Assembly (NCBI GenBank): GCA_026075535.2
Contig: AP026539.1
Location: 7,564,001-7,628,000, forward strand
DNA length: 64,000 nt
DNA from: Tricholoma matsutake
Lineage: Eukaryota > Basidiomycota > Agaricomycetes > Agaricales > Tricholomataceae
Reading direction: 5' to 3'
The notes beneath the pieces are model-generated. The model made no database searches, had not been told where the DNA came from, and saw nothing but the letters and a program-made list of their open reading frames with translations. Position numbers and translations under genes: made by a program. Shown here in pieces: positions 5,421-57,375 of the stretch (its first letter is position 1; every line of letters begins with the position of its first letter).

Positions 5421-5458
5421 GGGACCCAGTCGGGTCCAAAAAAGTCTTTTTTTTTTTC

Positions 5459-32981: not shown

Positions 32982-33115
32982 GAAATCCTGACAGTCCCAG
33001 TCAGCTGATCAGAGTCACGTGCGAAATGTGTGATTGTGTTGAAGCTGTAAACAAAACTTGAAAAAACTTCTCGTTCTCCTTCATCAACCTACACCCTCAA
33101 TACTAGCTTTTCATC

Positions 33116-34436: not shown

Positions 34437-34437
34437 A

Positions 34438-36500: not shown

Positions 36501-36519
36501 CTGGGGCATTGGATGAGTA

Positions 36520-37718
36520 GTCAATAGCGCAAATTGCTGGGGAATTGATGAGTGCTTGCTTTAGGTCTTCCTGTGCTGTGATTTGTTTTGGTCCAAATTC
36601 GAAAGGGACATCTTTTCATGTAAGGTGTATTAGAGCTGTAGCATGTTGAGCAAAGTTTCAAATAAAGATACGACAAACTCCAATAGTTCCTAGAAATGCC
36701 TTGACTTTGGTAAGGCTTTGACAAGGTCCCCATTTGCCAACTGCTGTGATGCAAGTGGGATTGGCCATATGACCTTTGATATTGCATTGATGACCTAAAA
36801 CGATTATTTTGGGGATGCAAAGGTAAAGTTTTGGACCAGAAAATGTTCCTCCACAATACTTCATGCGTTGGACTATACAATTTAGATTCCCGAAATGTTC
36901 CCAAACAAAGTGTTGAATGCCTGGATTATTGGTGATCACTTTGTAAGATCCTCCGATAGTTCAATATTCTGATTTTGGACCCTTAACTGGTGTGTCGTCA
37001 ATGTAAGGGATGGTGATATGGGGGATTTCGGGTTGTAGGATGAATGTTATGTCATCATGTAAGATTGGAACCAAGTTTGTCCAACCCATTGGTAGGGTGA
37101 CGATTCAAAGTGCTCCAAAAGGTGTCTGAAATGTTGTTAGATCTTGAGATGTTTCTGTGACTTTCCTTTCATTGAATGTGACATATAGGTCCAACATTCC
37201 ACCACAAGCACATCCGCCAAATTGTTCAGCTAGATGCTCGGGGATCAGGACAATGCCAGAGTGCTGAATCGTTACTTGATTAAGAGGCTCAAGACTGTGG
37301 ACAATTTGAAGTGATTTTGCATCTTTCTTTGCAATGCAAAACCATTGGGACTGATACAAGGAGTTCGATGACTTGTATACTCCTGCTTCTATCTTCTTTT
37401 TCAGCATTTCACAGATCTGTTTGTACAGACCAGGAGGTATAGGGATATTATGTTCAACCCATGGAGTGTGAGGAATAACAGGGAGTTCAATAGGAGGAAA
37501 GAAGTTGGGGCAAAAGCTTCCTTGTTCTTGTTTGGTCCATGCAAAACCTGTTTTGTGATTTTGAATAAAGTCGTGCATAAGCTTTCATTCTTCTGGCCAT
37601 AGGAAATTGCCAGGATGGTTTTTGTCAATAATAGCTTTGCATTCGAGTGTATACCAGGGAGAAGGGATGAACAATGGGGGTTGAGGATTGAGTTTTGGCA
37701 TTTTCTCGAAGGGGCCAC
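36520..37718 (-). pseudogene. C2 reverse transcriptase (degenerate)
   Basis: FFPPIELPVIPHTPWVEHN near 37470 leads into the RT fingers. The palm has YIDDTPVKGP at about 36985-37010 with both Asp residues kept. The connection has KAFLGTIGVC near 36690. Several stops interrupt. Confidence 0.85.
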
Positions 37719-38156
37719 CAGTGATTGTTCGAATAATGCGAAATCAATCGGGTAGTTCAGTAATAACTGGTCAAACTTTCTGTGTGACTGGTTTGTATTT
37801 CTTCTTCGAGGCTGCGAAGATTAGGTATATAGAGTCAGTTGACAAGATGTGGGGAGGGGAAATGATAGCGGAGTTGGGCATAGAGGTGGCTGTCAAGGCC
37901 GATAAGGACGTTGCATACTGGTGGCTAGCCATTAAATATAAGTTCACAAGAATTGAGGAAAAGAAAAGGGTGTTCAAAGAGTTCAAGGAGTCAATATCAG
38001 GAATAATTGCAGTGTACTCAATAGTTATAGAGGAATTAGAGTGGTCAAAAGAAAGAAGGAGGGTATTCTCTGAGATTTTATCCTCTAGTTGCAAAAATCC
38101 TTGTGAACTACTCTTCTTCGATGATTAGATTGGGGGATAGTTGGAATAGCACAGGA

Positions 38157-38984
38157 TCATGTCGAGTTCAGATCAAAAATAGTTATTGTTTGTGCTTCGT
38201 TTTGATAATTCTTTACCGTACTCTCTGTGAGAACGTCAAATGGTTGTCCGAGCAGAATGTCATAGGCTGGATTGCAGATGATGTGTATTTGCATGTAGAG
38301 GGTGATGCTACCAACTTTGCATGGTATGTTTCTTGCTAAACCTAGACTCTGGTCAATACCACTGTTAGCTGATTGTAGAGGGATGTGTATCAACAGATTG
38401 TATGCAAGACCAATTTCATGACAAACTTCTTCCGACATTGCAATGATCGATAAACCCAGATCAACTACACTTTTGACTGGATTTCTGCCATTGACATTCA
38501 TAATAACTGATCTAATAGAGTGTGATTCCTTGGCTGTGATGAAAGGTTTGGGTGTTTCTCCAGGGCAAAGACTGCTAATATAGGTTTTGTAAGGGTCGTC
38601 AATTACGAAAATGTCATCGTGAAGGAGATTCATAGTGTTATTTCCTTTGGTTTGCTGGATACAACGCGCAGTGACCTGTTCCTTCCATTTCATACAAACT
38701 TCGGGCAATAGTGAAAGTAATTCTTTGGGAGTTAGAGTGATAATTGGGGTTTTCATTGATTGGGTGAAGATGTCTTTGGTGATTTTGTCCTTTTGAATGG
38801 GGGCTTGGGTATGGTATGATGGGCCGTCTTTTGCTTTTCCTGTTGATGTGAAGTTGTGTGCATGGGGAGGTAGGTACGAATTTTCCTTAGTGCCATTGTA
38901 GGGATGTATTACCAGTTGGAATGATTTCTTGGAGGTTGAAGATGGTGCTGAATTTGAATTAGGTTGGTTGGTTGGTGTGGACAA
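38157..38984 (-). pseudogene. C2 protease region, 275 uninterrupted codons
   Basis: The longest open piece of C2. SVVDLGLSIIAMSEE replaces the DPGS active-site sequence seen in C1 and C3. PAYDILLGQPFDVL lies near 38240. The N-terminal part is Ser/Pro/His-rich linker continuing from Gag. Loss of the small residue after the catalytic Asp-x-Gly suggests an impaired enzyme. Confidence 0.82.
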
Positions 38985-39014
38985 TATCGATGGTGCTGGT
39001 GGTTGTGGGACAAA

Positions 39015-40084
39015 TCATTCGACCGGTGCAGGGATCGAGGGCCATGAGGTAGGAACTGTTGGCACATTTGAATCAGTTCGTGCAAAAGGTCTACCACTTC
39101 GCAAAGCATATATCTCTTGTTCAAGTTGTGTGATACAATCTTCAGCTGTTGTGGATAGGTCAGTAATTTGGTAGACACCTCTGGATGGCATTGAAGAAAC
39201 TGTTGAAGGTGTGATATTATACATTAGTGAAGGGGTAACATTAGATGGAGGGTTTCATCGAGTCCATTTGTCAATCCTGTCCTTGATAAAATGACTGGGG
39301 ATGCTTCAAGGAGTGAATTGACCATTTGGGAGAATGTTTTTGCCTTCAGTGTTCTTCTTACACTTTCCTTCATTGATATATGACTGGCAAACCAAACAGT
39401 CGCTAATGAAATGTCCTGTAAGCCCACAAAAGATGCAAACTAAAGTTTCTAGCTGGTCCAAATGAAATCCACTGTTAGGTCGAGTAGTGTTCATGGTCTT
39501 TGAACCTGCTAAAGCAGTTACAAGAGTGGCTGTGAATTTCTTGAGGATTGCCATAAGATTTTCCGATTTAATTTGAGGCAAAGATGTCGAGGTTGTTGGA
39601 ATTGCCGAAGGTGCTGAAGAATGCGAACTGAGTAGCAATGTCGAATCCGAGCTGATGGATCCTGCTAAAACAAATTTTGCTGCTGCGTGAATATTGTTGA
39701 GTGGGTAGGGGTCATCGGGGTAGTGATCAGGGAATTTTAGTTTGAGTCATCGAGTGATTCTGGCCCATAAACCTGGTTGGAAACCCTGGATGAAGGCTCT
39801 GCTTTGTTCAGCATTGGAAATCCTGCCTTTAGTAGATAGAAACTTTGTAATGTTATAGAATGACCAAAAGTATAATCCCAAATTGCTTGCATTGTAAATA
39901 CCAATGCAAAGTTGTTTGCTGACAAGTTTGTCCATGTCAGAAATTGACCATTTCCAATCATCTTCGGAACCAGGGTACAGTTGGTGAATAGCAATGCAAA
40001 AGTTCTGGAACAAAATGCTGGTGTCATATTCTGGAATCAATTCCCAGAGTTTGGAAGTGTCGATATCGAGGTAATGACAAGCGT
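39015..40084 (-). pseudogene. C2 Gag, C-terminal part
   Basis: Contains the end of the capsid domain (AEQSRAFIQGFQPGLW near 39790) and the knuckle CIFCGLTGHFISDC near 39395-39436. It is broken at 40084 by D, which duplicated AGCGT (now AGCGT and AGCAT). The N-terminal part is at 49677-49832. Confidence 0.85.
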
Positions 40085-40844
40085 TGTTAAGGGCAAAGCC
40101 TCAACTACTTGATCTAGTCAATGTCATCCAACAAGGTGCTTCCTCATTGAGTTGTTTGGTGCTAGTCTTACTTGGAGCATCCAACATAAGATGATAGTAC
40201 ACCTCTAGCAGGGCTTCTGCATAGAGTCATCTGGGTTCACGCACTAAGGGGCTTCCTTAGTGGTTTTGAGTGAGTTCACGTACTAAGGGGAATCCTTAGT
40301 AGTTTCGAATGAGCTTGCAAGTTAAGGCTGTAGATTGCCTAGATCTAAACTAAGGACATCCCTACTACAAATCACAGTACTTATACTAGCAGGGAGATCC
40401 CTATCATCCAATCGGAATGGTAGATGTGTATCAAGTAACAATAGAAACAGTAAGCCTCATGACTTGCATGAGGCATCCGATGTCGCAGAGTGCTGCAGCG
40501 CAGCATGTCAGGAAACAATAAGAGATAAGCCTCATGCCTAGCATGAGGCATCCGATGTCATGGATCTGATGTCAATTGTGAGAGTCCAACATCACAGACC
40601 TCATGTCAAGGGGCTGTCGTATCACAGCATGTGTGGGAGTGGGTTCGGGTGCATGGAGTCACCATGCGTCAAGGGTGCCTTCCATGGGAAGGGGATCAAA
40701 TGCATGTTGTTGGCATGCATAGTGTGTGTGTCTGGTGTCAAGGGCATGCCTCAGGCATGAGTCAGGGAGTGCCTCCTGTCTGGAGGGGATCGTTGGGTGT
40801 GTTGGGTCAGTCAGGTTCCATGAGTTACAAGGAAAATTGTAACA
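40085..40844 (-). repeat. D 3' LTR
   Basis: 760 bp. It is shorter than the 5' LTR because the latter has an extra segment near 49340-49410. It contains two hairpins (40454-40474 and 40529-40549). A purine tract (sense AAGGGGGTAA) abuts it at 40845-40854. Confidence 0.92.
40454..40549. repeat. Paired hairpins in D LTR
   Basis: Palindromes at 40454-40474 (8-bp arms GCCTCATG/CATGAGGC) and 40529-40549 (9-bp arms GCCTCATGC/GCATGAGGC) are each followed by ATCCGATGTC. The 5' LTR has the same pair at 49235-49255 and 49310-49330. Confidence 0.8.
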
Positions 40845-41009
40845 TTACCCCCTTGTTATGGTTGAAAGTTCCACACTTTGAGCTAAATCTTTGTCTCTCC
40901 TCTGCAGTCTGAACGGTTGTGGTCTGGATATGTGGGCAGGTCAGGGTCGAGGGGTGCAGTGGAGGAATAATTCATGTGAGAACTTGGACCATGATCAGGT
41001 TCTTCTGGT

Positions 41010-41978
41010 TCATGCTGCCCTAGGCAGTGGTGTCAAGGAGTCAGTGGTGTCATTGAAATGGGTTCGTTGCAGGATGGCAAATTCAATGTCTGTAATCGGG
41101 GGTTCGGGTCTTGGTTGGAAGATTGTGTAGAGGCAAAATGCAAAGCTTAGGGCTGCTGCTGCTGCCAGGGTTGTGCCAACAATGATGGTGAGGATTGTGA
41201 TTCCTGAGAGCATGGGTGTGTTCTTGTCATGCCATCGTTTTGGCCTTGCTTCTTAAATCCTTCCGAAGGGTTCTCCCATCATGTTTCCCATCGCATCATC
41301 ATCAAAATTATCATATCCTGAGTCAAAGAAGAGCTGCTGTCTGCGCTCAACTTCTCTCTGTTCGATCTCTCGATCTTTCCAAGGTTTCTCCCAGCAGTTC
41401 ATCCTATAATGTCCAGGGCCTTGTTGTTTGCAATATCTGCAAACATATCATTGGCAGATCAGGCCGAAGTGGCCTATCTGCTGGCAGATGAAACATCTGG
41501 CATGTCTCATGTGTGGGGGGGACCAAGGTGGTTGGGTGGTCTTCGGTTTGGGTTCAGGGGTGGTCAGATCAATTATTTTGGGTGCCCTAGGCATGATCTT
41601 CGGGTTCTTCATAGAATGGGAGGACTCTCCAGAGGGAGCTCGTCATTCATCTCTGTCGCTCTGCTCGCTGAATGGTGAGAGCAAGGTTGGTGGTCATCTG
41701 TGTCAATCTAAGGGGGTGTGAGGTCTCTCCTCAGCTATTCTCAGTCTGTCTAACCGCGGTGCAATCATTTCCTGGATCGTCTGTTTGATCCCCAGGGCAT
41801 CTGCATCGTTCATCACTTCTTCTAGATTTTGTTCCATCTGTTCGATTGTGCTCGCATAGTAGAAGCACATCCTGGCAAGATGGTATTTTGGTGGGTTGTG
41901 GGTGAGGTGAACGTGAAGGGCATCAGCATTCGATCGGTTTCATAGGTACTCTCTGGTGAATCATCGTTCAGCAGGCAT
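41010..41978 (-). pseudogene. D third ORF: tandem zinc-knuckle protein with C-terminal membrane segment
   Basis: The ATG at 41978 lies 4 nt after the pol TGA (41983-41985) in the sense direction. One frame of 322 codons runs to 41010. It has a helical N-terminal part, a Pro-rich linker and two knuckles (CFICQQIGHFGLIC and CRYCKQQGPGHYRMNC, about 41390-41500). An acidic stretch with DSGYDNFDDDAM comes next, then a hydrophobic segment ITILTIIVGTTLAAAAALSF near 41135-41205 and about 35 residues of tail. Stops in the frame are TGA or TAA at positions where CGA or CAA is the simple ancestor. It sits where env would be but shows no signal peptide or env features. I do not recognise a family. Confidence 0.65.
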
Positions 41979-41982
41979 CTTT

Positions 41983-44900
41983 TCAGAAGTGTTGTAGTGG
42001 GAAAGGGGGGTTTTTTGGGTTTTTGTCAGAGGTGGTACCTCTTCTTATATCTGTTAGGATCTCAGGGGCATTCTTCAAGTTTGATTCAGGTTCCCATGTG
42101 TTTTCGGATGTCAGGTAGTCAACCCATTTCATGAGGTAACGGTGTGTCTTGCCATGCTTCTTGTGTGTGATGATCACTTCCACCTCGTATTCATTTTCTC
42201 CTTCCACAAGGCTGGGTGGTGGAGTCAGGAAGTTTCGCCCATGAGTGTCATTCTCATGGTATTGTGTGAGTAAAGCTGCATGAAAGACTGGGTGGATCTT
42301 CCATCTCGGCAGCAGTTTTAGTTGGTATGTCGTTCTTGACAGGGCATCTTTGATTGTGAAGGGCCCTTCTCATTTTGGCACCAATTTTCTCGTTGGGTAG
42401 CCAATCTTCAGGTTCTTGGAGTCGAGCCATACTTGCTCTCCAACCTTGAATGGTTTGTATCTTGCCTTTTTGTTTGGGCGGCCATAGCCTGTCTGGCCAG
42501 TTCATGTGCGGCAAGAGCTTCCCTTCTTGCAGAGAGAAGTTCTTGGATTCTCTGTTCGGCGGCCAGCATATTTGTCTTTTTGTAGGGGGTGGGGATAGTG
42601 CATGGTTGATATCCCATCATCAAGTAAAACAGCAAATGTTTTACTGTGGAGTGCATCTTCTGGTTATGTGCGAATTCTGCTGTTGGGAGACAATGCTCCC
42701 AATCTTCTGGTTTGTTCAAACAGAACATGGGGAGGTAAACCTCTAGCTTCTGGTTTACTCACTCCGTTTCTCCATTGGTCTGGGGGTGATAGGCGGTGCT
42801 CATGGATAGCTTGATCCCGAGCAGTTGTCCGAGTTCTCAGAAGAGTTTGGACATGAATCAAGGGTCTCTGTCTGAGATGATTCTTCTGGGGAGTCCAAAT
42901 CTTGTGTATACATGGCACAGGTAGAGGTCTGCAGTGCCAAGTGCATTGATCATCAAGCGCAAGGGATAAAAATTACCCCCTTTGTAAGACCATGGTCTAC
43001 CACGACCATGATTGAGTCAAATCTGTTTATTACGGGCAGGTCCATAATGAAATCTGTCGTTACCAGCTTGAATGGTCTACTGGCATCGGATGATATTGGT
43101 GGGTGGGGTCATTGGGTGTGTGTTGATCTTCATTTGCTGGCATTTTGTGCAGCCTTTGATGTATTTCTTTATGAAATTGGCCATTCCTGGCCACCAGTAG
43201 TCTCATTGGATCAGTTTGATCATTTGCCATTGTCCAGGGTGCCCTGTGGTGATGCTATCATGGTATTTCCATATGATCACTTGGCGGAGGGTTTTGTCCT
43301 GTGGCATGTAGCATCTGTCTTTGAAAAAGAGCAGACCATCTTTGAATTTCCAGTCCTCCAATGCAGATTTGATTGGGGGAGTTCTGTTGTTTTTCAGGGC
43401 TTGTAAAGCTTCATTTACGAGGTTGTCCTTCATTATTGCTGAGACCAGGGCTCCCTGGAGTTCAGCATCAATTGTTTTCATGAATAGTTCATTGGTGAGG
43501 ATGGTCTTGTCCTCGTTATTGGTGTCTTCTTTGGCTATATGATCTGCTCTCCTTGATAGGGCATCAGATTGTACCATCTGTGATCCTGGTACGTGTTGTA
43601 GCTTCAGGTCGAATTGTGACAGGTAGATGCTCCATCTAGCCTGTCGTTGGTTCAGTTTCTGTGCCTGATGGAAGCACATCAGGTTCTTGTGATCGGACAG
43701 TACCATCACAGGGAACAGCATCCGTAGTTCCCTGTCATATATCTCATAATTTCTCTCCGCTTCATTGAAAGAATGTGAGATGTAACCACATGGGTGCCAG
43801 TCTCCATTGGCATCCTGTTGTCTGAGTACCATGCCTGTTGCAAACTTTGAGGCGTCGGATTCCACCACAAATGGCTTCATTGCATCTGGCATCAGGGCTT
43901 CATTGACTTTTCTTTTCAGCACATTGAACAACTGCTGACAGTCATTCATCCATTTGAATTTCTGGTTTTTCTTTGTCAAATCATTCAGTGGTCCGGCCAG
44001 ATCCGCGAAGTGTCCGATGAATCTTCGATAGAAATTTCTGAATCCTAGGAAGGATCTTATGTCCTTCACTGTCCTTGGCATGGGCCAGTCCTTGATCCCA
44101 GCCAGTTTTGTGTTGTCCATTGCAAGTTTGTTGGGCCTGATGATCATGCCCAAGAAGTCAACTTCTTGCACATTGAACTTGCACTTCTCTATCTTCAAGT
44201 AGAGATTGCATTGTTGTAATCATTTGAGGACCCTTTCAGTCCTTATCCGGTGTTCTTCTTCCATCTTTGAGAAGATCAGGATGTCGTCCATATAGATGAC
44301 AAGCCATCCTTCATCCATCATATCTCGGAAGAGATCGTTCATCATTGCCTGGAATGTCGCCAGTGAGTTGCACAGCCCAAAGAACATCACCATTGGCTTG
44401 AATAGCCCTCAGTTAGTCTTGAATGCTGCCTTCCGCTCGTCTCCTTTCTTTATCTGCACATTATGATATCCCCATCAAATATCAAGCTTTGTGAAAAATC
44501 TTGCTCCCTTCAGCTTGTCTAAGAGGTCTCCAATTAGTGGTAGGGGGTAGTTGTTCCATATTGTTCCTTTGTTCAGATAGCGATAGTCCTGGCAAGGTCA
44601 TAGAGTGTCAGAGTCCTTCTTCAACACAAAGAAGAATGGGGATGCCATGGGTGATTTTGATGGTTGGATGTATCCTTTCTCCAGGTTTTCGTCTAGAGAC
44701 TCATTGAGTTTCTCTTGTTCTTTCGGTGTCAGTGGGTCAACTTTGCAATCCTTTGGTACAAAGCCTTCCTTCAAGTCGATCACATGATCCCAAGGTTTCA
44801 ATTCTGGGAATCGCTCAGATGTGGCTTTCTCAAATACCTGTCTGTATTTCTGGTATTCCAGTGGCAGTAGATCATCCAGGGTCTGTTGGCTAGTTTCCTT

Positions 44901-46209
44901 TCCCTCCTCTTGTTCATGTGCTAGTCATTGAGATATGGATGTCTTTGCTCTGATCCATATGTCTGAGTTGAGTAGGTACCATGGGGAGCCTTTGCTCTTT
45001 GTAAGCCTGTTGATCGTGTTTGTTTTTGGATGTACTTGTATCTCAGCTCTCGATGTTCCTCTGTCAGGGGAAGTTCTATATCTGGTCTGAATAGGCCAAT
45101 GACCAGTTCACCTCATACATATGTGATCAATACCAAGTCGTCCTCAATTGCATCTCGTTTGGGGATCTGGTTTGTTGCTTGTATTTCCATGCCTGTGTCT
45201 GCCAATAGTTCTTCATTGGGTACCTCTTTGATCTTTACTTGAGGGGGGGTCTCCCTGGGTATTGGTACTCTGGTGTCAGTAGTACCATAATCTGGGGTTC
45301 TGTAATTGCATATTGGGGTAGCCCCCTGATGAGGGTCTTTTGTTCTGTTTTGTAATGCTGTTTTCAAGTTTCATTTGCTGGTGCTTTCCTCCCCTGTGGA
45401 GGTCAGCGAGTCTTTTATCTTCCACAGGATTTGTCATGTCTTGTCATGTTTGTTGTGTTTGCCCTTTTCCAGTTGCTTCTTCTTCTGGTTTTCTTGGGTC
45501 TTGGCAACAGCACATCATGCTGCTTTGAGGTTTCTGGCTTCTTTAGGAGTGCTGCTGCTCCTGGTCTTTGCAACAGCTATCTGGGCAGAATTCAGTTCTT
45601 TGGCTTTCTTTTTGGAAAGCCTTTCCTTTGTCTTTGCCATGGCCAGTCGTGCTCGGGCAAGGTTTCTCTCCATCTCTTTGGAGAGTCTTTCTCTTGTTTT
45701 TGCCACAGCCAATCTGGCTCAGGCAAGGCTCCTCTCTTTCTCTTCAAAGAGCCTCTGTCTTGTCTTGGCCACAATGTGTCAAATTTGTGCCATTCGGTCA
45801 TTGGGCGCCTCCTTCCCTGTGTTGACCCTGGGAAGGTTTAGGGTGTTTGGGAGGGCCCATTCAGCTCTTCTTGTCTTCTCCAAGATTCATTGGATTTGAG
45901 CCCATCGTTCTTCGTTTTGGAACTAAAAGTTCCCTTTTTCCAGTCGATGATCGGGTTTATCTCCCGCAGCCATGGCAGGCCCAGGATTACCAATTCTTTG
46001 CCTAGTCTGGCGACTAGGTATTCCATTGGGTAGTTCCTTCCGTTGATGTGGAGTCTCCCTTTCATGCATCTCATGATTGTTCCCTGCTTATTCAGGGTTC
46101 CATCCACGTTTGTGGCCTGAATGGTGTGGCCAGGGTATGTCCTGATCCCTTCCTGTTCGATGAATTTTGAGTCGATAAAGACTCCTCCTGCTCCAGAGCC
46201 GAGGAGCGC
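41983..46209 (-). pseudogene. D Pol: protease (part), RT, RNase H, integrase, chromodomain
   Basis: Protease C-terminal half near 45838-46200 (LGSGAGGVFIDSKF at the LTR junction, VILGLPWLREINPIIDW). Then a Lys/Arg/Glu-rich linker (45515-45800). RT from about 44800 has VIYMDDILIFS near 44290, so the catalytic pair is kept. A 331-codon open stretch (43203-44198) covers RNase H to the integrase finger. The integrase core has TTDFIMDLP and SDRDP. The chromodomain is YEVEVIITHKKHG to LKNAPEILTD at 42050-42190. The stop is TGA at 41983. Frameshifts and TGA codons inactivate it. Fully typical chromovirus order. Confidence 0.9.
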
Positions 46210-47515
46210 TGATGATGCTCAACCCAGAAACCCAAACAAAACCCACAAAATGGCTTCAGATGGTATAACACAAGTCAGAGGAAGGTTGCGAGGCCCTCTA
46301 GATGTCACCTGTCAGACCGACCGTCAAATAGTCATAGAATAACTGCTTGTCGAAGCAGTTCGAGGCTAAAAGAATGTATTTCGAGGCCTTGCGATGATTT
46401 TCGAGATGTTGCAATATTTTTCAAAGAAGTCTCAAGGAATTTCGAGTGCGCAGATATGTTTGGATGCAAGATTGGGGGACTAGACGAGTAGTAGAAGTGA
46501 AGAAAAGGCTAATCAAGGGAAGAGAGAGCAAAAATAGCATAATGCGAGGAATTTCAAGGAAGTTTAGTGTAAAACACCAAACTTTGGACTGAATAAGACT
46601 AAACTGAACTCTCAAATCACTGTGATCTGGGAGGAAGATGACGACTTGTTTTTCTTTGTATCTAGTACATCTTTTTATATAAAATAAAGAAAGTACCTAA
46701 AAAGGCTAGAGAACATGAGGCAAACATGTGGAAAACTCAAGGCAAAAGACAATATAAGTATATGAGAACAATAAAGCGAGCCTAGAAGGGGTGAATATAA
46801 CACATGATAAGAAATAATAAGAAAGAATAGCTAAAACTGGACTGTCCTTGTTATAAATTGAATAAAAGATCGGAAACTGCTTCGAGCTGGATTGTATGCA
46901 TGCACATGCAGTTGAAATGTGTTCAATATACACGATATAGTGTCCCATGTGTCCAGCATGCATCCGAAGATTGTTTGAACAGGAAATACTGTGTCCAACG
47001 ATGTTTTTTGAGGTTCGATGTTTTTTGAAGATTTTTGAAGATTCTTCAGACTTCGTTTGTGGCCCGATATCGGTGCAATATTGTTTGACAATGGTAGGGG
47101 ATACATCTGGCATGTGTGCAATGAGTATTCAGATAGCAATATAGTGTCCGATGTTGATTTGCGATGTTCAATGATTTTTGAAGTCAGTCAAGGAAATATC
47201 GGACTTGTTCAAAGGCCGATATCACTGCGATATTGCTCGATACTGGTTCGGAACTTATTGACGATGCTCCAAGTGTATATCCTGAGCTGTCCAAAGGTTG
47301 GGGGAGTTGTACTATGGTGGCCGAAGGCATACAAAGAATTTCGAGGTGTTGCAAAGAATTTCGAAGCATTTTCGTGACTTTGTAGAGCTTTGTAGAGGTT
47401 CATAGAGCTTCAGAGGGGTTCGTAGAAGTTCGGAGGGGTTCATATGGGTTTGTAGAGCTTCGACAACGATTGTAGATGTGATTTTCTGAGCTTGAATGAC
47501 AAGGTGGACCTATCG
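46210..47515 (-). repeat. C-like solo LTR, long subfamily, inserted in D protease
   Basis: 1306 bp from TGATGATGCTC to GGACCTATCG, flanked by GCGC at 46206-46209 and 47516-47519. The ends and the first 100 bp match the C LTRs, while the middle is longer and diverged. Removing it rejoins the D protease around ATNALL and GSGAG. There is no internal region, so it is a solo LTR. Confidence 0.82.
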
Positions 47516-47656
47516 GCGCATTCGTTGCAGCGTCTTTCCTGTTGTCTGACTCAGCTACCCAAATAGACAGGCACATAGATTGTCTATTCATGGTAGCTAA
47601 GAGTACAGATCCTATGGAGACTACAGCAGTGACTGGTGTTGCATCAGGCTGCTGTT
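47516..47656 (-). pseudogene. D protease N-terminal part
   Basis: The frame with SMCLSIWVAESDNRKDAATNA joins, across the solo LTR, to the LGSGAGG active-site loop. The expected Asp before SGAG is Gly here. Confidence 0.65.
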
Positions 47657-48820
47657 CTAAAAACCCGATTCCTCCATGAGGTTGAGGGCTTGTTCCTTTT
47701 CTTCTTTGTCCAGTTCATCCAGCATTGTGTGGATCTTCTGGTAGGTGTCCACCCCAGTCTTCTTCTGGGTGAAGCAGTTTTGGTAGGAAGGGGGCGCTGA
47801 CCCCATTTGAGTGGGGTTCTTTCCATCCCTGTGGTAGGACAATCGGTGTCCCAGTTGGTGGCAGATGAAACACAATCCCTTTCGGAGGTGTTCCATGCAT
47901 TCTTGGTTTGTCAGTCGGTTGATGTCAAGAGAGGGCTGTCCTTTCTTTGTCGTTTCATTTGTCTTCTGGTTCTGCCTGGTCTTTCCCAGGATTGCCATGG
48001 CCTGTTTCCATTGGCCTTCATATTTTGAAGCTGCCTTTATCCAGCCTTCAAGAGTATTGGGTACTGTCTCCATTGTGTGTACCCTCTTCAGTAATTCAGG
48101 GTGCAGTCCATCCATGAAGTACTTGATCATGGCTGCATCTTCTGTGATTCCCGTCCTGTCTTTCAGGATGCGGAAGTTTGCCACATATTCTTTGAGGTTC
48201 CCTGAACCTTGTTTGAGATTCTTGATCTCAGTCTTTGCCATTCTGGCATTGTCGATCAGTGAGAAGGCTTCTAGGACCTTCTGTCTGAAGTCTGCATATT
48301 CTCCAAGTCCCTTGGATTGGTGTTGGTTGACAAATGCCTGCACCCAGGCAGCTGCTGTCCCTCTATTCATGAAGGACAGCATGAAGATAATCTTCTTGTC
48401 GTTCGTGTCATAGACCTGGTCATTGATTCACAGGTATAGGTCCATCTCCTGCAGGCAGTCTTGGTCCGCTCTCCTGAGAAGTCTGTGGGTGATCGGATTT
48501 GAATGTCCTTCATGGACATCATAGGTGTGGTTGCAGCGGGTTCAGACATCTGGTTATAGAGGTTGTTGATTTTGTCTGTTAGGAAGTGGGTAGATGTTTT
48601 GGGTGGGGGTGTGTGTGGTTGTTCGAAGTCTTTGTCAGTGAGGAAATCTCCTCTTTGTCTTTCAGTTGATCTGTAGAACCAACACTGTGCTGGGGTCAAG
48701 TAATGGACTAGTCTTCCATTGTATGGGTACCAAGATGAACCTGGCTGTGATTCCGCTTCTCTTGGTGGTTGGTCTGGGGTTTGTCTAGACCCAGGTCATT
48801 GTGGTGTGCTTTGAGACATA
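47657..48820 (-). pseudogene. D Gag with degenerate zinc knuckle
   Basis: The ATG at 48820 (MSQSTPQ) starts an N-terminal region that needs a 1-nt shift near 48760 to read on. IRSPTDFSGERTKT opens the capsid domain, and FMNRGTAAAWVQAF and LEAFSLIDNARMAKTEI follow (47657-48382 is one 241-codon open stretch). The knuckle CFICHQLGHRLSYH has lost its last Cys. TAG at 47657 ends Gag. The capsid domain is typical of fungal chromovirus Gag. Confidence 0.85.
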
Positions 48821-48851
48821 TTGCCTACACCTAGGTAGGTGGGCTAGCAGA

Positions 48852-48861
48852 TAGTTTAGAT
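48852..48861 (-). promoter_or_regulatory. D self-priming site next to the 5' LTR
   Basis: Four nucleotides inside the 5' LTR the sense strand reads ATCTAAACTA. This is complementary to TAGTTTAGAT in the D LTR itself (plus-strand ATCTAAACTA at 49124-49133). The LTR site lies about 34 nt downstream of sense TATAAG (plus 49161-49166). There is no TGG site. The arrangement is Tf1-like and matches A1 and A3. Confidence 0.6.
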
Positions 48862-48865
48862 TGTA

Positions 48866-49676
48866 TGTTAAGGGCAAAGCCTCAACTACTCAATCTAGTC
48901 GATGTCATCCAATGAGGTGCTTCCTTGTTGAGTCATTTCATACTAGTCTTACTCAGAGCATCCGACATAAGATGATAGTACACCTCTAGCAGGGCTTCTG
49001 CATAGAGTCATCTGGGTTCACACACTAAGGGACTTCCTTAGTGGTTTTGAGTGAGTTCATGTACTAAGGGGATTCCTTAGTAGTTTCAAATGAGCTTGCA
49101 AGTTAAGGCTGTAGATTGCCTAGATCTAAACTAAGGACATCCCTACTACAAGTCACAGTACTTATACTAGAAGGGAGATCCCTATCGTCCAATCGGAATG
49201 GTAGATGCATATCAAGTAACAATAGAAACAGTAAGCCTCATGACTTGCATGAGGCGTCCGATGTCGTGGAGTGCTGTGGCACAGCATGTCAGGAAACAAT
49301 AAGAGATAAGCCTCATGCCTAGCATGAGGCGTCCGATGTCATGGATCTGATGTCAAGGATCTGATGTCAAGGATCCAATGTCAAGGACATGCTGTGGCGC
49401 AGCATGTCAATCATGAGAGTCCAACGTCACAGACCTCATGTCAAGGGGCTGTCGTATCACAGCATGTGTGGGAGTGGGTTCGGGTGCATGGAGTCACCAT
49501 GCGTCAAGGGTGCCTTCCATGGGAAGGGGATCAAATGCATGTTGGCATGCATAGTGTGTGTGTCTGGTGTCAAGGGCATGCCTCGGGCATGAGTCAGGGA
49601 GTGCCTCCTGTCTGGAGGGGATCGTTGGGTGCGTTGGGTCAGTTAGGTTCCATGAGTTACAAGGAAAATTGTAACA
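48866..49676 (-). repeat. D 5' LTR
   Basis: 811 bp, with the same ends as 40085-40844. It contains the paired hairpins at 49235-49255 and 49310-49330 and an additional ACATGCTG/CAGCATGT palindrome near 49386-49407. Confidence 0.92.
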
Positions 49677-49832
49677 AGCATGCTTCTTCATTTCTTCGGA
49701 GTTCATGACATTGCATGCAGAGAAAAGCAATTCGAGCTTGTTAAAATATCAGTGAAGTTCTTGCAGCTGGGTAGGGTCAAATTTTGGAGCTGTGGAATGA
49801 CCACAAGCTGGCATTGTTGCTTGTGTAGTCAT
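49677..49832 (-). pseudogene. C2 Gag, N-terminal part
   Basis: The ATG at 49832 begins MTTQATMPACGHS and continues to KKHAC, where D interrupts. The rest is at 39015-40084. The upstream Ser/Thr-rich leader (49850-50030) is in frame but has no ATG. Confidence 0.8.
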
Positions 49833-50144
49833 GAATGCGATGTTTCTAGGGGTAGGGGTTAAAACTTGTGTGAACGATGGTAGAGGAGTCAAAGTTGTTG
49901 GAAGGATGAATGAAGATGTAGATGATGAAGACGAAGAAGTAGAGGATGATGTTGAAGGCAAGGAGATTGGTGAAGGGAATAATTGATGATGAGTCGATTC
50001 TGCTTTGGAAACAGGGATTAGAATATCTCCCAATTGTTTGAGAGATTTGAAGGTGTGGCAAGTGTTGATTTGTAGGTTTCTAGCTTGTGTTGGTCTAAGC
50101 TGGGAGATTCGAGATGGATTAGGCAATGAAATGATTTAGAAACC

Positions 50145-50161
50145 CCTTGCGGTGGGCTCCA
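50145..50161 (-). promoter_or_regulatory. C2 primer-binding site, TGG type
   Basis: Sense TGGAGCCCACCGCAAGG lies three nucleotides from the 5' LTR, the same as in C1 apart from one CpG. Confidence 0.6.
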
Positions 50162-50164
50162 AAA

Positions 50165-51250
50165 TGATGATACTCCACCAGGAAACCCAAAAAAAACCCA
50201 CAATAAGGTCTCGACTGGCATAACTCTAGTTAGAGGAAGGTTGCAAGGTGGTACTAAATATCACTGCTGTTACCCAAGGTTAGGGAAATGACTTTAGAGA
50301 GGGTCTGATGAAGTTTGATGAGGTTGGAGGGTGTACAAAGCACTATGATGATGTTCGAGGGAAGTTCAATGAGGTTTGAGGGTGTACAAAGTGGTGCAGT
50401 CACATTCAACGAAAGTTCAAAGAGGTTCGAAGATATTTGAAGAAGTTTGATGAAGTTCAAAGGGTTTACAGAGGACAAGGACGACTTTGATGATGGCTGA
50501 GGATAGACTATAGGGATGTAGAAAGGCTTTTGAGTGGGGATAGATGATAGATGATTGTTTAGAGAAGCTAGTATGAAGAGTTCAAAGAAGTTCAGTGTAA
50601 AACACTAAACTTCTAGACTAAGTCGAGAGGCTTGGACTCAAGAGGATTGCTCTTAAATCAGACAATTTGTGTCAGAGGACAATCTATTCTGTCTTTCTAA
50701 GTAGCTAGTACAAGGCTATATATGTTTGGGAGAGGTGATACTGAAAAGGAAATAAAACATGAGGAATACATGAGGCAAGATATAAAACAATAGAGAATCT
50801 TTGCAAATCATAGAATAAATGAAAGAAGATGAGAAGGGAAACATATAGAGTCACAATTTATCATGGGTACCTGTCCCCATTGATCCAATATATCATCAAG
50901 ATGTCAAAGTGCAATCGCATCCTAAAATCCCATCATTGTGTCTCCTTGTGTCCAGTGGTGCTTGATATGTGATGCACTAACTCTTACAAGGTGTGCTGCA
51001 TGTATCTGAAGGGTGGTGCAATAGGTATATGGCAGCCGAAGTCGTTTGAAGTTCTGCAAAGTTGTTCAAACTTGCTCAAAGTGTTGCAAAGTCATTTGAA
51101 GTCATTTGAAATCGTTTGAAGTAGTTTGAAGTAGTTTTGGAGCAGTCTCGCAGGGTTTGTAGGGGTTTGTAGGGGTTGGGAGCATGTGTTTTGATGTGTC
51201 GATGCCTTTGGAGACATTCCCAGAGCTTAGTGCGCATGCTGGACCTGTCA
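50165..51250 (-). repeat. C2 5' LTR
   Basis: 1086 bp from TGATGATACT to GGACCTGTCA. It abuts the GCAG target duplication at 51251-51254. Confidence 0.92.
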
Positions 51251-52097
51251 GCAGGCGATGAAGGAGCAAATGGAATGGGAGATGAGAGAGCTGGAGGAGG
51301 AAGTGACGAGGGAGGAGGAGCAGAGGACGCAGGAGGCGCAAAGAGCAGCAGGGGTGTGGAAGAAGGAGGCAGCTGCTGCAAGACAAGCAGAGAAGAAGTG
51401 GGTGGCTGTGGCCAAGGGTAGCAAGTCCCCAAAGAAGAAGAAAGTCACCAAGTCGAAGGCGAGGGTGGGGTCAGAGGAGTCCAAGGGTCCAGTGTGGGTG
51501 CAGGCTGCCTTGCCCTGCAAAAGGTGAGTCTCTTGTTTTACTTCTCAGCCTTCTTTTACTGATAAGTGGCCTAGATGCAAATATCAAAAATTTTCTTGTT
51601 TCAAGATGGGCATGAGGGGACGCATGTGCGATAACTGCATGCATGTCAAACACAAGTGCAACAAGGTAGTGTGGCAGGGGCAGGAGGCCCCTGCAGCAAA
51701 AATGGCGGGAATGATGGGGTCAATGGGGAATAGCAGGGAGAATGCAGAGCTGCTGCAGCAGCTGATGAAGACAGTGAAGAAGGTCAGTGAGGTGGCAACT
51801 GTGGTATGGGAGTCCATGGAGGAGGTCTGGGATGCATTGGACCCAGAGTGGGTGGAGGACGAAAGCGCTGGGGAGGAGAGCGACAAGGATGAAGACAAAG
51901 TGGAGCGGGTTGTGCGAGAGTCCCGCTGGGAAAGGCGCAGGATCTGCCAGTCTGGGGATGACTGGGCAGCTTTCCAGAGATATCTGGAGAAAAGGTGGGC
52001 AGATGATGAGGAGGAGGAAGAAGATGACAATGGTGACAACAACAAAGAGGGTGCAGGGAATGAAGAGGGTGAGGGAGATGTGGAGGTGGTAGTGTAG
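51251..52097 (+). CDS. A3 antisense accessory gene: spliced Zn2Cys6 protein, 287 codons open
   Basis: This continues the frame from 31827-31898, interrupted only by C2. Exon 1 ends at 51523, intron 51524-51574 (51 nt, GTGAGT donor, CTGAT branch, CTAG acceptor), and exon 2 runs to TAG at 52095-52097. With C2 and the intron removed the frame has 287 sense codons and no stop. Order: a charged helical N-terminus, SPKKKKVTK (SV40-like NLS, about 51430), QAALPCKR, then the zinc cluster with exact C-x2-C-x6-C-x9-C-x2-C-x6-C spacing created by splicing. A Gln/Leu helical region, ALDPEW and a strongly acidic tail follow. Zn2Cys6 proteins are fungal DNA-binding regulators, so nuclear action is inferred. 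It is antisense to, and convergent with, A3 pol (stop at 52199). Confidence 0.72.
51524..51574 (+). other. Predicted 51-nt intron in the A3 antisense gene
   Basis: Splicing joins AG and A into an Arg codon between the first two cysteines (C-K-R-C). Without splicing the frame stops inside the intron. E and A4 have introns of 48 and 52 nt at the identical codon position. Confidence 0.72.
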
Positions 52098-52145: not shown

Positions 52146-52151
52146 AATAAA
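52146..52151 (+). terminator. AATAAA signal of the A3 antisense gene
   Basis: Lies 49 nt after the stop, inside the 101-bp convergent gap before the A3 pol stop. Conserved in A1 and A4. Confidence 0.5.
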
Positions 52152-52198
52152 ATTTGTTTCTGAGTGCTGACTGAGTGAATGAGTAACGTGAATAGGCT

Positions 52199-53345
52199 TT
52201 AAGTGGGTAATGGACTGGGTTTCTGTGCGTAGTGGGTGTGAAAGTCCATGAGGAGTTCTTGGGCATGGTCAAGTTCCATAACAGGTAGCCAAGGTTTCTT
52301 CATCGGTTCCCTGGTAACCTTCCCATCAGACGAGGTAGAGAATCTTGCAGTGGCACCGGTTGTTGACCTTGGAGTTGAGGACTTCAGCGATCTCATACTC
52401 AAGCTCGTCATCGATAGTGATAGGAGGAGGTGGAGGTTGTGCTCAATTTGGAATTGTGTTCGGGAAGTGTTTTTCTAGTTGGGAGACATGGAAAACAGGG
52501 TGGATGACCCGCATGTGGTCCAGAAGCCACAGGGTGACTGAGTGAGTACCCAGGCAGGTGATGATTTTAAAGGGACCATGGTTCTTTTTGGAAAGTTTCT
52601 TGGAGGGATGTGTGGTGCTAATATTTTCCGCAGTGATGTAGGCAGAATCACCAAGGTTGAAGTCGGGTGTGGGTGCCCGATGTTTGTCCGCATGGCCTTG
52701 ATAATGCTCTTGAGCAGCCGCAAGCTGTTTCTGAAGTTCCTGATGAAGGTCATCTAAGTTGACGATGAACTCGCGGGTGCGCTGTGAGGCTAAGTTGTGT
52801 TTGGGGAAGATGGAAATGTTCAGGTGGTAGCCTTTGTTGGCAAAGAAAGGGGATACACCTGTAGAGGCAGAGGGAGCATTGTTGTAGGCAAATTCACCCA
52901 AGGGTAAGAGGCGAGACCAGTCATCCTGCTGATAGTTACAGAAGATCCAGAGGTACTGCTCCAGGGTCTGATTAAGTCGTTCCATCTGACCATCACCTTG
53001 CAGGTGATAACCAGAAGTAAAGTGGATCTGCATGTCGAGCACTTTTCCAAGGGAGAGGAAGAAATGGGAGACAAACTCAGATCCCTGGTTGCAAGTGACA
53101 TGCGATGGGACGCCATGCTTGGAGAAGATGTGGAGGACAAACAGGTTGGCTAATTCTTGGGCTGTGATTTCATTGACAGTTGGGATGAAGATGCCTTGTT
53201 TGGTGAGGCGGTCAACGATGACCAGGATAGTGGTGTGGCCGTCGGAGTCGGGTAGTTGCTCAATGAAATCCATGGAGATTGAGTTCCAAGGTTGTTCTGG
53301 AACTGGAAGTTGCTTCAGGAACCCATAGGGCTTGTGTTGAGGCAA
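52199..53345 (-). pseudogene. A3 integrase core and chromodomain (degenerate)
   Basis: A 300-codon open stretch (52443-53345) holds the DDE core: D in SMDFIEQL; the second Asp is Asn in CNQGSEF; E in GDGQMERLN. The chromodomain (52199-52440) is interrupted by a TGA and a frameshift near 52300. The stop is TAA at 52199. Confidence 0.9.
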
Positions 53346-55884
53346 TTTGGATCGCTTGCAAGTGGTACAAGATTTGCAGAATTCCTAGATGAAGGTGTGG
53401 AAGTTTGGCCAGACATATTCCTGATGGACAAGCTGCTGGGTTTTGTTTTGTCCAAAGTGGCCAGAGAGGATATGATCATGTTTGTACTGAAGGACCTTGA
53501 GGCGGAGATCCACAACATCTGGAACATAAATCCGGTCGAAGTGGTGGAGAAGACCTGCCTTGTCTATGGTCCAGTTGGGGTCAACAGGTGTCGGAAGATG
53601 TGCGGATGATAGGGGGTCAAGGGGTAAGGAGGTGCAGATGTCATGGTGAAGTTTCTCAACATCCATGATTATTGCTTGTCGAAGCATAGGTGTTGCAAGG
53701 TAGGTGGCATGAAGGGAAGAGGTGAGTTGTTCCTGTGTGAATACAGGTCGGAAGTTGGTCAGGTTTACAGAGGCAAAGTCACTATTTCCCTCTTTGCAGT
53801 AGATGTCCCAATGTCTTGTGAGCGCGTCTGGCTTGGCCCCTAATTTTCTGGGGCAAAAGTGGATAACAAGATTGAACTGTGAGAGGTACTCGGACCCTCT
53901 GGCTTGACGGTGGGTGAGCAATTTAGTAGTGCTGAAGTACTCCAGATTTTTGTGGTCCGTGACCACATCGATTGGGTTTGTGGAACCCTCGAAATATTGC
54001 TGCCAATGCTTGAAGGCTTCGAAGATGGCCAGAAGTTCCTTGTCATGTGTATCATAATTCAGTTCAGTGGGATTAAAGGAGTGGGAATGGAAAGCAACCA
54101 GATGAATTTCTCCATCCACAGTATAAACTGAGAGGATAGCTGCTAGGGCATAGTCGGAAGCATCGGTTTCCAGAACCATTTGAGAGTTGGGTACCCATTG
54201 AGTGAAAATGGGAGCATGGGTGAATTCTTGTTTAAGCTTTTCAAAAGCATTGCGGCACTTCTTGTTGAAGTCCCAGGGTGCGGATTTCCACATCAAGCAG
54301 GTGAGTGGGATGACAATGTCTGAATAGCTGTTAATGAAGCGGTGGTAAAAATTGCAAAAGCCTAAGAAGGATTGAATATCCTTAACTTTCCTAGGCTCAG
54401 GCCAGTCAAGCATGGTTTTGACTTTATCTTTGGACATCTGCAGCCCATCTGGTGAAAGGATGAAACCTAGGTATTCCATGGTGTCTTTGTGGAACTCACA
54501 TTTCTGAGGTGAAGCATAAAGTCCATTCTTCTGGAGTCTCCGAAGAACTTCTTTGACATGAGTTCCATGCTGCAATTTGTCATCAGAGTAGATCAGGATG
54601 TCATCAAGGTAGATGATGACACAGACATCCAGCATGTTGCTGAAGATGTCATTCATAAACCACTGGAAGGCTGCAGGTGCATTAGTGAGGCCAAATGGAA
54701 CTACCAACACTCGAAGGATCCGTAGCAGGTGCAGAAAGTAGTTTTCCATTCATCACCATCCGCAATGTGGACTAGGTGATAGGTGTGCTGCAAGTCTATC
54801 TTGGTAAACAAGCAGGCTTTTTGAGGGGGGTTGAGGAGGTCAAAAATGAGTGGAAATGGGTAGCAGTCCTTCTTTGTGAGATGGTTGAGGCCTCGGTAGT
54901 CAACACAAAGTTGTAGGCTGCCATCTTTCTTCTTGACAAAGAGGATGGGAGTGCCATGTGGGGATTTAGAGGGGCAAATGAAACCTGAGTGGACATTTTC
55001 ATCAATGAAGACTCATAAGGCTTCTAATTCAGAGGGAGAGAGGGAGTACATGCGACCCGGAGGAGGGGGAGCATTATCCTCCATCTCTATCTTGAGGTCA
55101 TAAGGGCAATGTGGAGGAAGGGTGTCCACCTTAGTCTTATTAAAGACATCAGTGAATTCATGATACTCAGTGGGAATGTCAGATAAATCTGGCGGGTGTA
55201 AAGATTGAGCAGAGTGGGCAGATAATCCTTCTGGAGCAAAGGTCATCTGGAAAGCTACTGCCCCAAGAAGCTTGCTACCATGCGCATACACGGCAGCATT
55301 GATGAACAAAATGTCGGGAGGAGAAAACTTAGGTGGGGTTCTAAAGGTGCAGGTGAACCACGGGTATCTACTGGAAGGTTCAGGGACAAAGGTGATGTCT
55401 GGGGTGCTGGACCTCTATGATCTGCAGAGCAGAAAGCGATTTGGCTTGAAGACCAGTCAATCAATGGATTGTATTGCTTCAGCCAGTTATGACCAAGTAA
55501 GGCAGAACAGGAAGAGTCTAGTGAGGTTACATAAAATGACAGATTGAACATTTCACTGGCAGGGAAGGTGACTGGAAGTTGGACAACTTGAGTTATGGTG
55601 GAGTTGCAAGATCCATCAAAGAGCCATAATCTGATTGGGTTGATGGATTTTGTGCAGAGTTGGTTATCCCACACAAAGGAGGAATTGAGCAAGCAATGGG
55701 AGGAACCAGAATCAATAAGAGTTTGGACAGGAGCAGATTTGTCAGGAATGGTTAAAAGAGTGGTCAGGGAGTCAGGGTTGGAAAGAGTGGATGCATTGAG
55801 ACAAACGTAGGCAGCCAAATGGGTATGGTCAATGCAACCCCCAGCCCCAATGGCTGTTTCCTGAGGGTTGTGGACTATTTTTCC
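53346..55884 (-). pseudogene. A3 protease, RT, RNase H, integrase finger
   Basis: Protease with LIDSGSSHCLL near 55700 and LLGHNWLKQYN near 55480. RT with intact IIYLDDILIYS near 54600. RNase H near 54050-54250 is uninterrupted here, which defines the G insertion in A1. An HHCC finger lies at 53360-53470, with a TAG at 53385. Frame changes occur near 55300 and 54720. The 454-codon stretch 53385-54749 is the longest open pol piece in the window. The protease frame is -1 to Gag. Confidence 0.92.
55875..55884 (-). promoter_or_regulatory. Candidate -1 frameshift site between Gag and Pol (A3)
   Basis: Sense GGAAAAATAG with the Gag stop and -1 pol frame, as in A1 (9628-9637). Confidence 0.45.
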
Positions 55885-57028
55885 GAGTCCGCAGCATTGG
55901 GAATGACAGCAGAAGCATGGGCTTTTGCGGCCTTGGATTTTGGGCAGTTTCCTGCTATGGGCCCTTCCTCACCACAGTAGAGGCAAAGTCGTTCTCTCAT
56001 GTGACATTCTTGTTCCTCCCCAGTAAGCTTGCCATTCTTCCCCAACTTATCAGAGATGGATGGCTTGGGCTTGTCCTGGGGAGTGTTTTTTGTCGTGGAA
56101 GACTGCTGGTTGGAGGTGTTACTGTGGGCAAAGTTCAAAGAGGATTGGTTGGTAGATGGGGAAGGACTTTTGGAAGTGTCCTTCTGACTAGGGTTAGTGA
56201 AGCTACTGGAATTCTTTGTTTCAAAGTGGGATTCATCTTCTTGCATTCAGTAGATGTCGTCGCTGTCCTGCGCTTTCAAGCCCAGTTCTGCAAGAGTATC
56301 AGGTTTACCACCCTGGAGAACTTCTATGCAAAGTCGGAGTGGGAGACCATGGAAATGGCGGTCATGAAGGGCTGCTTCATTCCAGTTGACCCTAGAAGCT
56401 AATTCCCAGAAGTCAATGTTATATTTTGTGATACGACCACCTTTCTTCATTGCTAAGTCAGAGACAGCTTTTTTGCATCTCCAACTGGGTTGTGTGGGCT
56501 GAAGTTGCTTTCCAGCTCAGTGAGGAAAGCTTCATAGTCCCACATCCAGTGTGCAGAATCTGTTGGGTCATTAAGACCAGGCTCAAACCAACTAAGAGCT
56601 GATCCCTTAAGATAAGAAAGGATAAATATAATCTTTTTCTCATCAGAGGAAAATACATGTGGGCGGTCATGGAAATGAAGATTACATGAGACTAGAAAGT
56701 CTCTAAGCTTCTTTGGGTTGGTACCATCGAAAGTGTCAGGGTCACAAACTTGGATTTTTTCGGTCTTGGGTGTGTTGTTCTGACAAAGGGTGTGGATGGT
56801 TGTAAAGGACATCTATGAACCTATCCCCTGGATCAGGGTTTTCCACTGTGGGAGGTTGATCATCTGGATCATTGGGATTGGGGTCACCCCCAGGGCTGTC
56901 AGGTCCGCTAGACCAGGATCTTGCAACCTGAAGTGTTCAGGCTGGTTGATGCCCCCTACATACTCAAGGGGAGTTCTTGATCAAAAACCTTCCAGGTTGG
57001 TGGAAGGGTGCGGGGCATGGGTGGACAT
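55875..57028 (-). pseudogene. A3 Gag (degenerate)
   Basis: ATG at 57028 (MSTHAP). The capsid region VCDPDTFDGTNPKKLRDFL near 56730 is open, then shifts frame near 56465. The zinc knuckle is CLYCGEEGPIAGNC, with His replaced by Pro. Stops include codons at about 56985, 56815 and 56247. Most stops found in A1 are still sense here and the reverse also holds, so the two copies decayed independently. Confidence 0.87.
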
Positions 57029-57247
57029 GAGATTAGCAGTGATTGAGGGGGCTCCTGAGCCAATTTGTCAGAAGATGTTTGAGGGTCTGGAAGATACTCT
57101 GAAAGTAGTGGTGGGTCGAGGCTCGGGAAGGGTGGATCACTGAATTGAAGAGATCCCAGGAATAGTACCAGCACATTGGGAATTTCTGGTTGTGCACTGG
57201 TGGGTCTTGGTAGGGGTCATAGAGAGGAATGAGATGAGTGAAGTGTG

Positions 57248-57258
57248 AGTTTGTATAT
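57248..57258 (-). promoter_or_regulatory. A3 self-priming site
   Basis: Sense ATATACAAACT, two nucleotides from the 5' LTR. It is perfectly complementary to AGTTTGTATAT in the A3 3' LTR. Confidence 0.65.
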
Positions 57259-57260
57259 AC

Positions 57261-57375
57261 TGTTAAGAACTGATCCTAAAAGGCACATCAGAATCCAGTT
57301 GGACCCTGCAGATGTTGATAATGGAAAGTTGTCAGGTTGTAGCAGGTCCTGCAAAGGGGAACAGAAAGGACTCAG
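57261..57375 (-). repeat. A3 5' LTR, inner 115 bp
   Basis: Starts TGTTAAGAAC. It matches 30973-31087 and is then interrupted by the C3 LTR after GGACTCAG. The remaining LTR lies beyond the window. Confidence 0.85.

Follow-up and report, generated by a model that had tools for sequence, protein, structure and literature searches.

A conserved, intron-containing antisense gene with a predicted Zn2Cys6-like product in chromodomain Ty3/Gypsy elements of Tricholoma matsutake

Two related families of chromodomain Ty3/Gypsy elements (chromovirus lineage) in the genome of Tricholoma matsutake, here named A and E, carry a two-exon gene located between pol and the 3' LTR on the strand opposite to pol. 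The gene is present in hundreds of matsutake element copies, its purifying selection is about as strong as that in the pol of the A elements, and we have very little doubt that it is a conserved protein-coding accessory gene of this chromovirus lineage. An earlier note, made from the letters of one stretch of the genome, had proposed such a gene, and the analysis bears it out as borne by the elements, containing an intron and subject to purifying selection. Judging from the motifs of its sequence, the product is probably a nuclear protein that binds nucleic acids, and the best explanation as a whole, which we hold with moderate confidence, is an accessory gene of the element giving rise to a nuclear product that would act in trans.

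The window and its elements

The window, that is the whole stretch of DNA analysed (64,000 nucleotides), covers positions 7,564,001-7,628,000 of contig 2 of the T. matsutake assembly (161,040,721 bp, 13 contigs) and consists of LTR elements nested in one another (Table 1). Repeats are given as 71.6% of the T. matsutake genome in the portion of PMC10211490 available. Chromoviruses are recognized by gag, protease (PR), RT, RNase H, integrase and a C-terminal chromodomain, and all of these are found by Pfam in A1 and A3 taken together. A1 matched Retrotrans_gag, an aspartyl protease, RT/RNase H, a Tf2-1-type SH3 and Chromo (29.7 bits), and the pol of A3 matched RT, RNase H, Integrase_H2C2 and Chromo, with the integrase core (rve) below the cut-off. 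The frame of the A3 chromodomain is broken and was read by hand, with one stop written as X. The A3 gag region, within the last row of Table 1, was placed by alignment to A1 alone, and the final ~0.1 kb of that row reaches into the 5' LTR. In the window copy of E, whose pol lies on the + strand and ends near 24105, RT was matched and a degraded chromodomain scored 24.6 bits, just below the cut-off. Family E had been regarded as separate, and it is indeed distinct, albeit as a diverged sister and not as an unrelated element, since DNA identity between A and E is ~74% over the end of pol.

A3 appears to be inserted in A4. Inside exon 1 of its antisense gene there is in turn a nest of 19.35 kb of LTR repeats, bounded by an apparent target duplication, AGCAG, at 31894-31898 and 51250-51254. 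A further Gypsy-type element could be seen at 40085-49676 (gag at 47660-48424, RNase H/integrase at 43206-44216), with possible LTRs at 40085-40844 and 48866-49676; tblastn did not find the antisense gene in this element.

Table 1 Features of the window that bear on the antisense gene and its host elements
Feature	Position	Strand	Evidence or detail
A1 LTRs	4207-4917 and 11025-11735		
A1 gag, PR, RT, chromodomain		-	Pfam
A1 gene remnant, start MSPPAVSAQIK... and C-terminal part	5054..5421	+	
E gene copy	24220..24994	-	exon 1 24994-24636, intron 24635-24588, exon 2 from 24587
A4 gene copy	29889..30630	+	exon 1 remnant to 30040, intron 30041-30092, exon 2 30093-30630
3' LTR assigned to A3	30973..31691	-	80.9% identity to A1 11028-11735
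A3 gene, first 24 codons, ATG at 31827	31827..31898	+	tblastn with L015/L018/L028/L044
Nest of other repeats inside exon 1 of the A3 gene	31899..51249	.	
A3 gene, remaining exon 1: charged helical part, SPKKKKV, first Cys	51250..51523	+	
A3 intron, 51 nt	51524..51574	+	GTGAGT ... CTGAT ... TAG
A3 exon 2: second to sixth Cys of the six-Cys motif, ALDPEW, acidic tail, stop	51575..52097	+	
AATAAAA past the A3 stop, candidate polyadenylation signal of the A3 gene	52146..52152	+	
A3 chromodomain region, end of pol	52188..52443 (approximate limits)	-	PF00385, E 8.9e-7, 29.2 bits, cut-off 25.1
A3 integrase, RNase H, RT, protease	52443..57372	-	Pfam

As the earlier note had described from the sequence, a short intron interrupts one common codon in A3, A4 (52 nt) and E (48 nt), its removal yields C-x2-C-x6-C-x9-C-x2-C-x6-C in A3 and E, and both SPKKKKV and ALDPEW are found. 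The interrupted codon is one for Arg. The A3 copy had been placed at 51251..52097; there is a gene there, although not the whole of it, as its first 24 codons lie beyond the nest. A1 carries the gene only in part, with the start and the C-terminal part retained and the intron and cysteine region lost by deletion. In A4 two cysteines have been lost (the second, C2, to Trp and the sixth, C6, to Tyr), and its acidic tail is repeated (window 30500-30630). In the E copy exon 1 is interrupted by an in-frame stop and exon 2 by a frameshift. All four copies of the window are therefore damaged, so that the evidence rests on the remaining copies in the genome.

Copies in the genome

A protein search with exon 2 of A3 gave at least 150 genomic matches with E < 1e-55 (150 of 795 candidates scored), and at least 150 were also obtained with exon 2 of E (150 of 779 candidates scored). 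Furthermore, a 23-nt motif spanning the branch, the acceptor and the start of exon 2 has 314 genomic matches at two or fewer mismatches, and its reversed control has none. From the match lists we picked 20 A loci of 9.4-9.5 kb (out of the upper part of the list), 20 short loci (19 E and one A) and four longer E loci for study.

In 19 of the 20 A loci pol was found on the opposite strand past the 3' end of the gene, the exception (L026) having no pol, and in all four longer E loci integrase lies on the opposite strand at 340-380 nt from the gene. A pair of LTRs (80-94% identity) encloses gene and pol in half of the A loci (10/20). Five of these ten elements have exact 5-bp target duplications, one has 4/5, one 3/5 and one none, and the remaining two were unjudgeable. 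No enclosing LTR pair was seen for gene and integrase within the 9.4-kb stretches of the four E loci. A 10-nt LTR terminus starts 139-147 nt upstream of the ATG in all nine A copies compared, placing the edge of the LTR at 129-137 nt from the ATG, and the 420 nt ahead of the ATG contained no TATA[AT]A in any of these nine. At the other end, AATAAA was found 33-56 nt past the stop, near the end of pol, in seven of ten A elements. The identities of gene and integrase among A copies are weakly correlated (Spearman 0.15, p 0.048, 170 pairs), so copy-by-copy co-descent is not established.

Searches of public proteins yielded none among 1582 candidates, one among 7983 and one among 26, both times the same 218-aa protein, P0001, in a collection that may hold few fungi, and among 199 pattern matches in viral contigs there was no relative. 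P0001 is encoded by a 970-bp contig and reads ...ISCKRCMGQKLSCF... straight across the predicted junction, which would be an indirect sign of a spliced antisense transcript; the contig may stem from cDNA or from DNA of a copy that has no intron. Among the genomic matches listed (150 of 1217 candidates scored), the best piece of P0001 has 72% identity; given that no close match is among them, it probably comes from another genome.

A single conserved intron

Of the 21 A copies, 18 have GT-AG where it is expected (in L009 it lies away from the usual exon end), as do 17 of the 19 E copies; CTRAY, the branch motif, occurs in 19 of the A and 18 of the E copies. Apart from L009, intron lengths range from 45 to 52 nt. 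Among the E introns similarity is concentrated at the ends (0.91 at the donor and 1.00 in the last three bases against 0.62 in the middle). In A the last 20 bases reach 0.98, and the donor (0.81) is no better conserved than the middle (0.85).

Both readings of the site, spliced and unspliced, were compared in the 34 copies that remained once L009, L012, L019, L022, L034 and L042, which have no usable donor or acceptor, were left out. When spliced, 30 of them are open over at least 100 codons. The unspliced reading was rejected, as it runs into a stop within 48 codons in 33 copies, L010 being the exception. With a single conserved intron, its removal is needed to keep the frame.

The commonest donor in A, GTGCAT, looks weak. 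Exact matches to the test pattern, genome-wide and for family A, were 83 for GTGCAT, 18 for GTGCGT and 22 for GTGTGT, and GTGCAT and GTGTGT are the pattern that would be expected from CpG decay of a consensus GTGCGT donor. Such donor variants look as if nature had recorded here, on a small scale, how methylation damages splicing.

Coding evidence and selection

Exon 2 was compared in 43 copies (23 A and 20 E, including three window copies), and the median pairwise dN/dS was 0.32 within A, 0.24 within E and 0.34 between A and E, values biased downwards by the choice of copies through protein matches and, between the families, affected by a dS near saturation; 15 of 190 E-E and 73 of 460 A-E pairs gave no usable dN/dS. 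In the cysteine block the values fell to 0.20, 0.15 and 0.25. All are well below 1, not near 1 as the earlier note had named for the contrary case. For pol of the A loci, three pieces gave a dN/dS of 0.28, 0.23 and 0.42 when treated alike (19, 19 and 16 loci). The second to sixth cysteines are kept in 42, 40, 41, 43 and 41 of the 43 rows. Nine copies (4/21 A and 5/19 E) have a spliced frame running from ATG to stop as they stand, and seven of these nine retain all six cysteines.

A control that is less affected by the choice of copies is the comparison of the six reading frames, in 41 rows (WE and L047 were left out). The gene frame is free of stops in 38 of them, against 0, 0, 14, 2 and 2 in the other five, and its pN/pS (0.39/0.39/0.60 for A-A/E-E/A-E) is the lowest of the six. 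The next-lowest, on the pol strand, had 0.53/0.48/0.73 with stops in 39 rows, and the remaining four ranged between 0.90 and 1.32. The wobble positions of this next-lowest frame plausibly coincide with those of the gene. An env-like reading on the pol strand was considered and discarded, the other five frames having more stops and a higher pN/pS. As to chance, the unspliced six-Cys pattern was found neither in the six frames of the window nor in 100 random sequences of 64 kb drawn from a first-order Markov model, a test that covers unspliced frames and leaves freely chosen introns outside. The idea that all this is an artefact, with an antisense ORF open by chance across non-coding or pol-strand DNA, could appeal to the weakness of the Pfam matches described below and to the lowered pN/pS of that one stop-ridden pol-strand frame, but it is contradicted by P0001 and by what frames, stops, dN/dS and splice sites show, and we give it practically no credence.

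Architecture of the product

The nine intact products have ~250-320 aa and a common order of parts: a charged N-terminal helix, a PKKKKV-like basic stretch, the six cysteines, a part with ALDPEW and an acidic tail. AlphaFold modelled residues 1-50 of P0001 as a long helix with pLDDT 84-98; over the cysteine region, with an alignment of four rows, pLDDT was 34-41 and there was no confident fold. In exon 1 of one copy (L032, C7:7111950-7113350) a unit that encodes RGAPGC, as the frame was read, is repeated several times in a row.

The earlier note had called the cysteine region a GAL4-type binuclear zinc cluster. The spacing part of that claim stands. Zn2Cys6 clusters follow C-x2-C-x6-C-x5-12-C-x2-C-x6-8-C, and the spacing x2, x6, x9, x2, x6 found in A, E and P0001 lies in this range. 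Membership of the Pfam family is not borne out, and the Zn_clus (PF00172) search that had been suggested for the spliced product returned no full-score match. The A3 product had no Zn_clus match at E<=10 and P0001 none at E<=1, and in the nine full-length intact copies Zn_clus appeared in three (best E 0.12) beside GAGA_bind in three (best 0.01), Fer4_12 in two (best 0.0096) and CobT in one (0.0048). No bZIP family came up in the Pfam scans of the A3 product and these nine copies. When the 43-aa domain was isolated, 11 of 13 members matched Zn_clus, with a best E of 0.0043 and 17.6 bits, where the cut-off is 21 bits; in the member shown, the second half of the domain aligns to the first half of the profile, so that half of the profile is covered. 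Six host Zn2Cys6 domains used as controls all matched Zn_clus, and a profile comparison with them was colinear, with the six cysteines in register and 36.5% probability. Profile searches of the PDB gave nothing significant (with the domain profile, E values were 0.31 for Ski-like, 0.35 for PPR1 and 0.36-1.3 for HIV-1 nucleocapsid chains). GAL4-type or Zn_clus membership was thus not accepted, the scores being below the gathering cut-off and other families scoring as well or better in full-length copies, and 'Zn2Cys6-like' is a fair description of the predicted product. A host zinc-cluster locus (L004, C13:2924082-2924168) has two Zn2Cys6-like motifs ~0.36 kb apart in different frames.

Possible function and alternatives

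The gene would have been present already in the common ancestor of A and E. We picture its transcription as starting from an antisense promoter in or adjoining the 3' LTR, with the transcript being spliced by the host; the product may reach the nucleus by its PKKKKV-like signal, pair through the N-terminal helix and bind nucleic acid (DNA being the likeliest) by way of a zinc-dependent Zn2Cys6-like cluster. There it might act in trans on the LTR transcription, chromatin or integration of its own element, as HBZ does for HTLV-1. This last step, regulation of the element's own LTR, is put forward tentatively, a little short of an even balance.

A protein that binds nucleic acids could also be a nucleocapsid-like or chaperone-like binder of RNA or cDNA, one that does not regulate transcription and serves instead in packaging, in reverse transcription or in bringing the pre-integration complex into the nucleus. 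The HIV-1 nucleocapsid chains among the weak PDB profile matches, beside PPR1, would fit such a role, and the basic stretch and long helix are compatible with either. CCHC knuckles, however, differ from Zn2Cys6 spacing, and it is the latter in which the six conserved cysteines are arranged; Zn_clus is also the family matched by most of the isolated domains, and a long acidic tail would be unusual for RNA chaperones. Roles of this type are mentioned for products of antisense ORFs in the available part of PMC7264820, and we consider this one unlikely for the matsutake product. Still more improbable is that the antisense transcript acts mainly as RNA, through dsRNA with the gag-pol transcript, small-RNA silencing or self-limitation, with the protein being secondary. 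Gene and pol are convergent, and antisense-RNA roles in other elements are discussed in the accessible text of PMC7264820, but the codon-level purifying selection, similar to that of pol, and the near-invariant cysteines across A and E indicate that a selected protein is needed.

Finally, the product might counter host silencing (H3K9 or DNA methylation, RNAi) by binding to element chromatin or to host factors. At 45 CpG-variable sites the A copies have 213 CG, 353 TG, 288 CA and 118 other dinucleotides, which together with the donor variants counted above suggests that the copies are methylated and are probably under strong pressure from methylation. A chromodomain is, in addition, carried by the element. 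A role against silencing is thus a live variant, although it overlaps with the main explanation and as a separate reading we rate it low. The reading that we prefer remains a nuclear product acting in trans on its own element.

Comparison with known systems

Retroviruses and Gypsy elements of plants are known to carry antisense accessory genes next to the 3' LTR, and one fungal element carries an antisense gene; few of these genes have an assigned function. The one described here is common to two families, is selected about as strongly as pol and has a conserved intron and a readable architecture. With these features, whether LTR elements encode nuclear regulators of their own becomes a question that can be put to a direct test in a fungus both edible and ectomycorrhizal. 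A genomic parasite may thus make its own nuclear protein of DNA-binding type, as some human retroviruses do. Annotations of genomes like this one may also include transposon genes that resemble host zinc-cluster factors. In the literature searched, with subscription papers mostly outside the search, we found neither a basidiomycete element with such a gene nor a cysteine-cluster antisense gene in LTR elements, and the matsutake gene is probably undescribed. Somewhat less than an even call is the view that a spliced antisense gene provides a basidiomycete element lineage with a zinc-cluster regulator of its own, acting in trans, an independently evolved fungal counterpart of HBZ that would tune LTR or chromatin; if this is true, hundreds of copies tie the element load to a diffusible factor.

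Compared with fungal Zn2Cys6 proteins (PF00172), the cysteine spacing of the matsutake product is in range and the profile alignment colinear, whereas its scores stay below the Pfam cut-off. In fungal Zn2Cys6 regulators the helix usually comes after the cluster, and here it is ahead of it. Furthermore, the K-x-K run stands before the sixth cysteine and not before the third, and the consensus has no loop proline.

HBZ of HTLV-1 is a bZIP protein, spliced and with a role in transcription. The likeness lies in an antisense accessory gene near the 3' LTR, a functional analogue with no homology implied; the matsutake product has a six-Cys cluster and an N-terminal helix in place of the bZIP. An antisense promoter in the 3' LTR and a nuclear product are described for HBZ in the parts of PMC7264820 and PMC11963269 available.

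Among fungi, the nearest case by description is that of brtn in Boty-like elements, which like the matsutake elements are fungal chromodomain Gypsy elements with an extra antisense gene, in that case with an ascomycete host; the comparison is by description alone. The gene was reportedly described by Zhao et al. (2011, Virology) in Boty-like Gypsy elements of Botrytis cinerea. The earlier note knew of no fungal Gypsy element with a gene of this kind, a statement that has to be qualified, as these Botrytis elements have a chromodomain and the antisense gene brtn according to the available portions of PMC7264820, PMC8365987 and PMC4227169.

In plants, Gypsy elements with antisense ORFs between pol and the 3' LTR are described in the accessible parts of PMC7264820 and PMC11963269; the product of gene23 is nuclear and TRP28 is proposed to bind DNA. 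The hosts are different and Retand belongs to a non-chromovirus lineage, no six-Cys cluster is mentioned in the accessible parts of these papers, and the word 'intron' is absent from PMC11963269. In place and orientation, as far as these texts go, the plant ORFs are equal to the matsutake gene, and like it they are kept in many copies.
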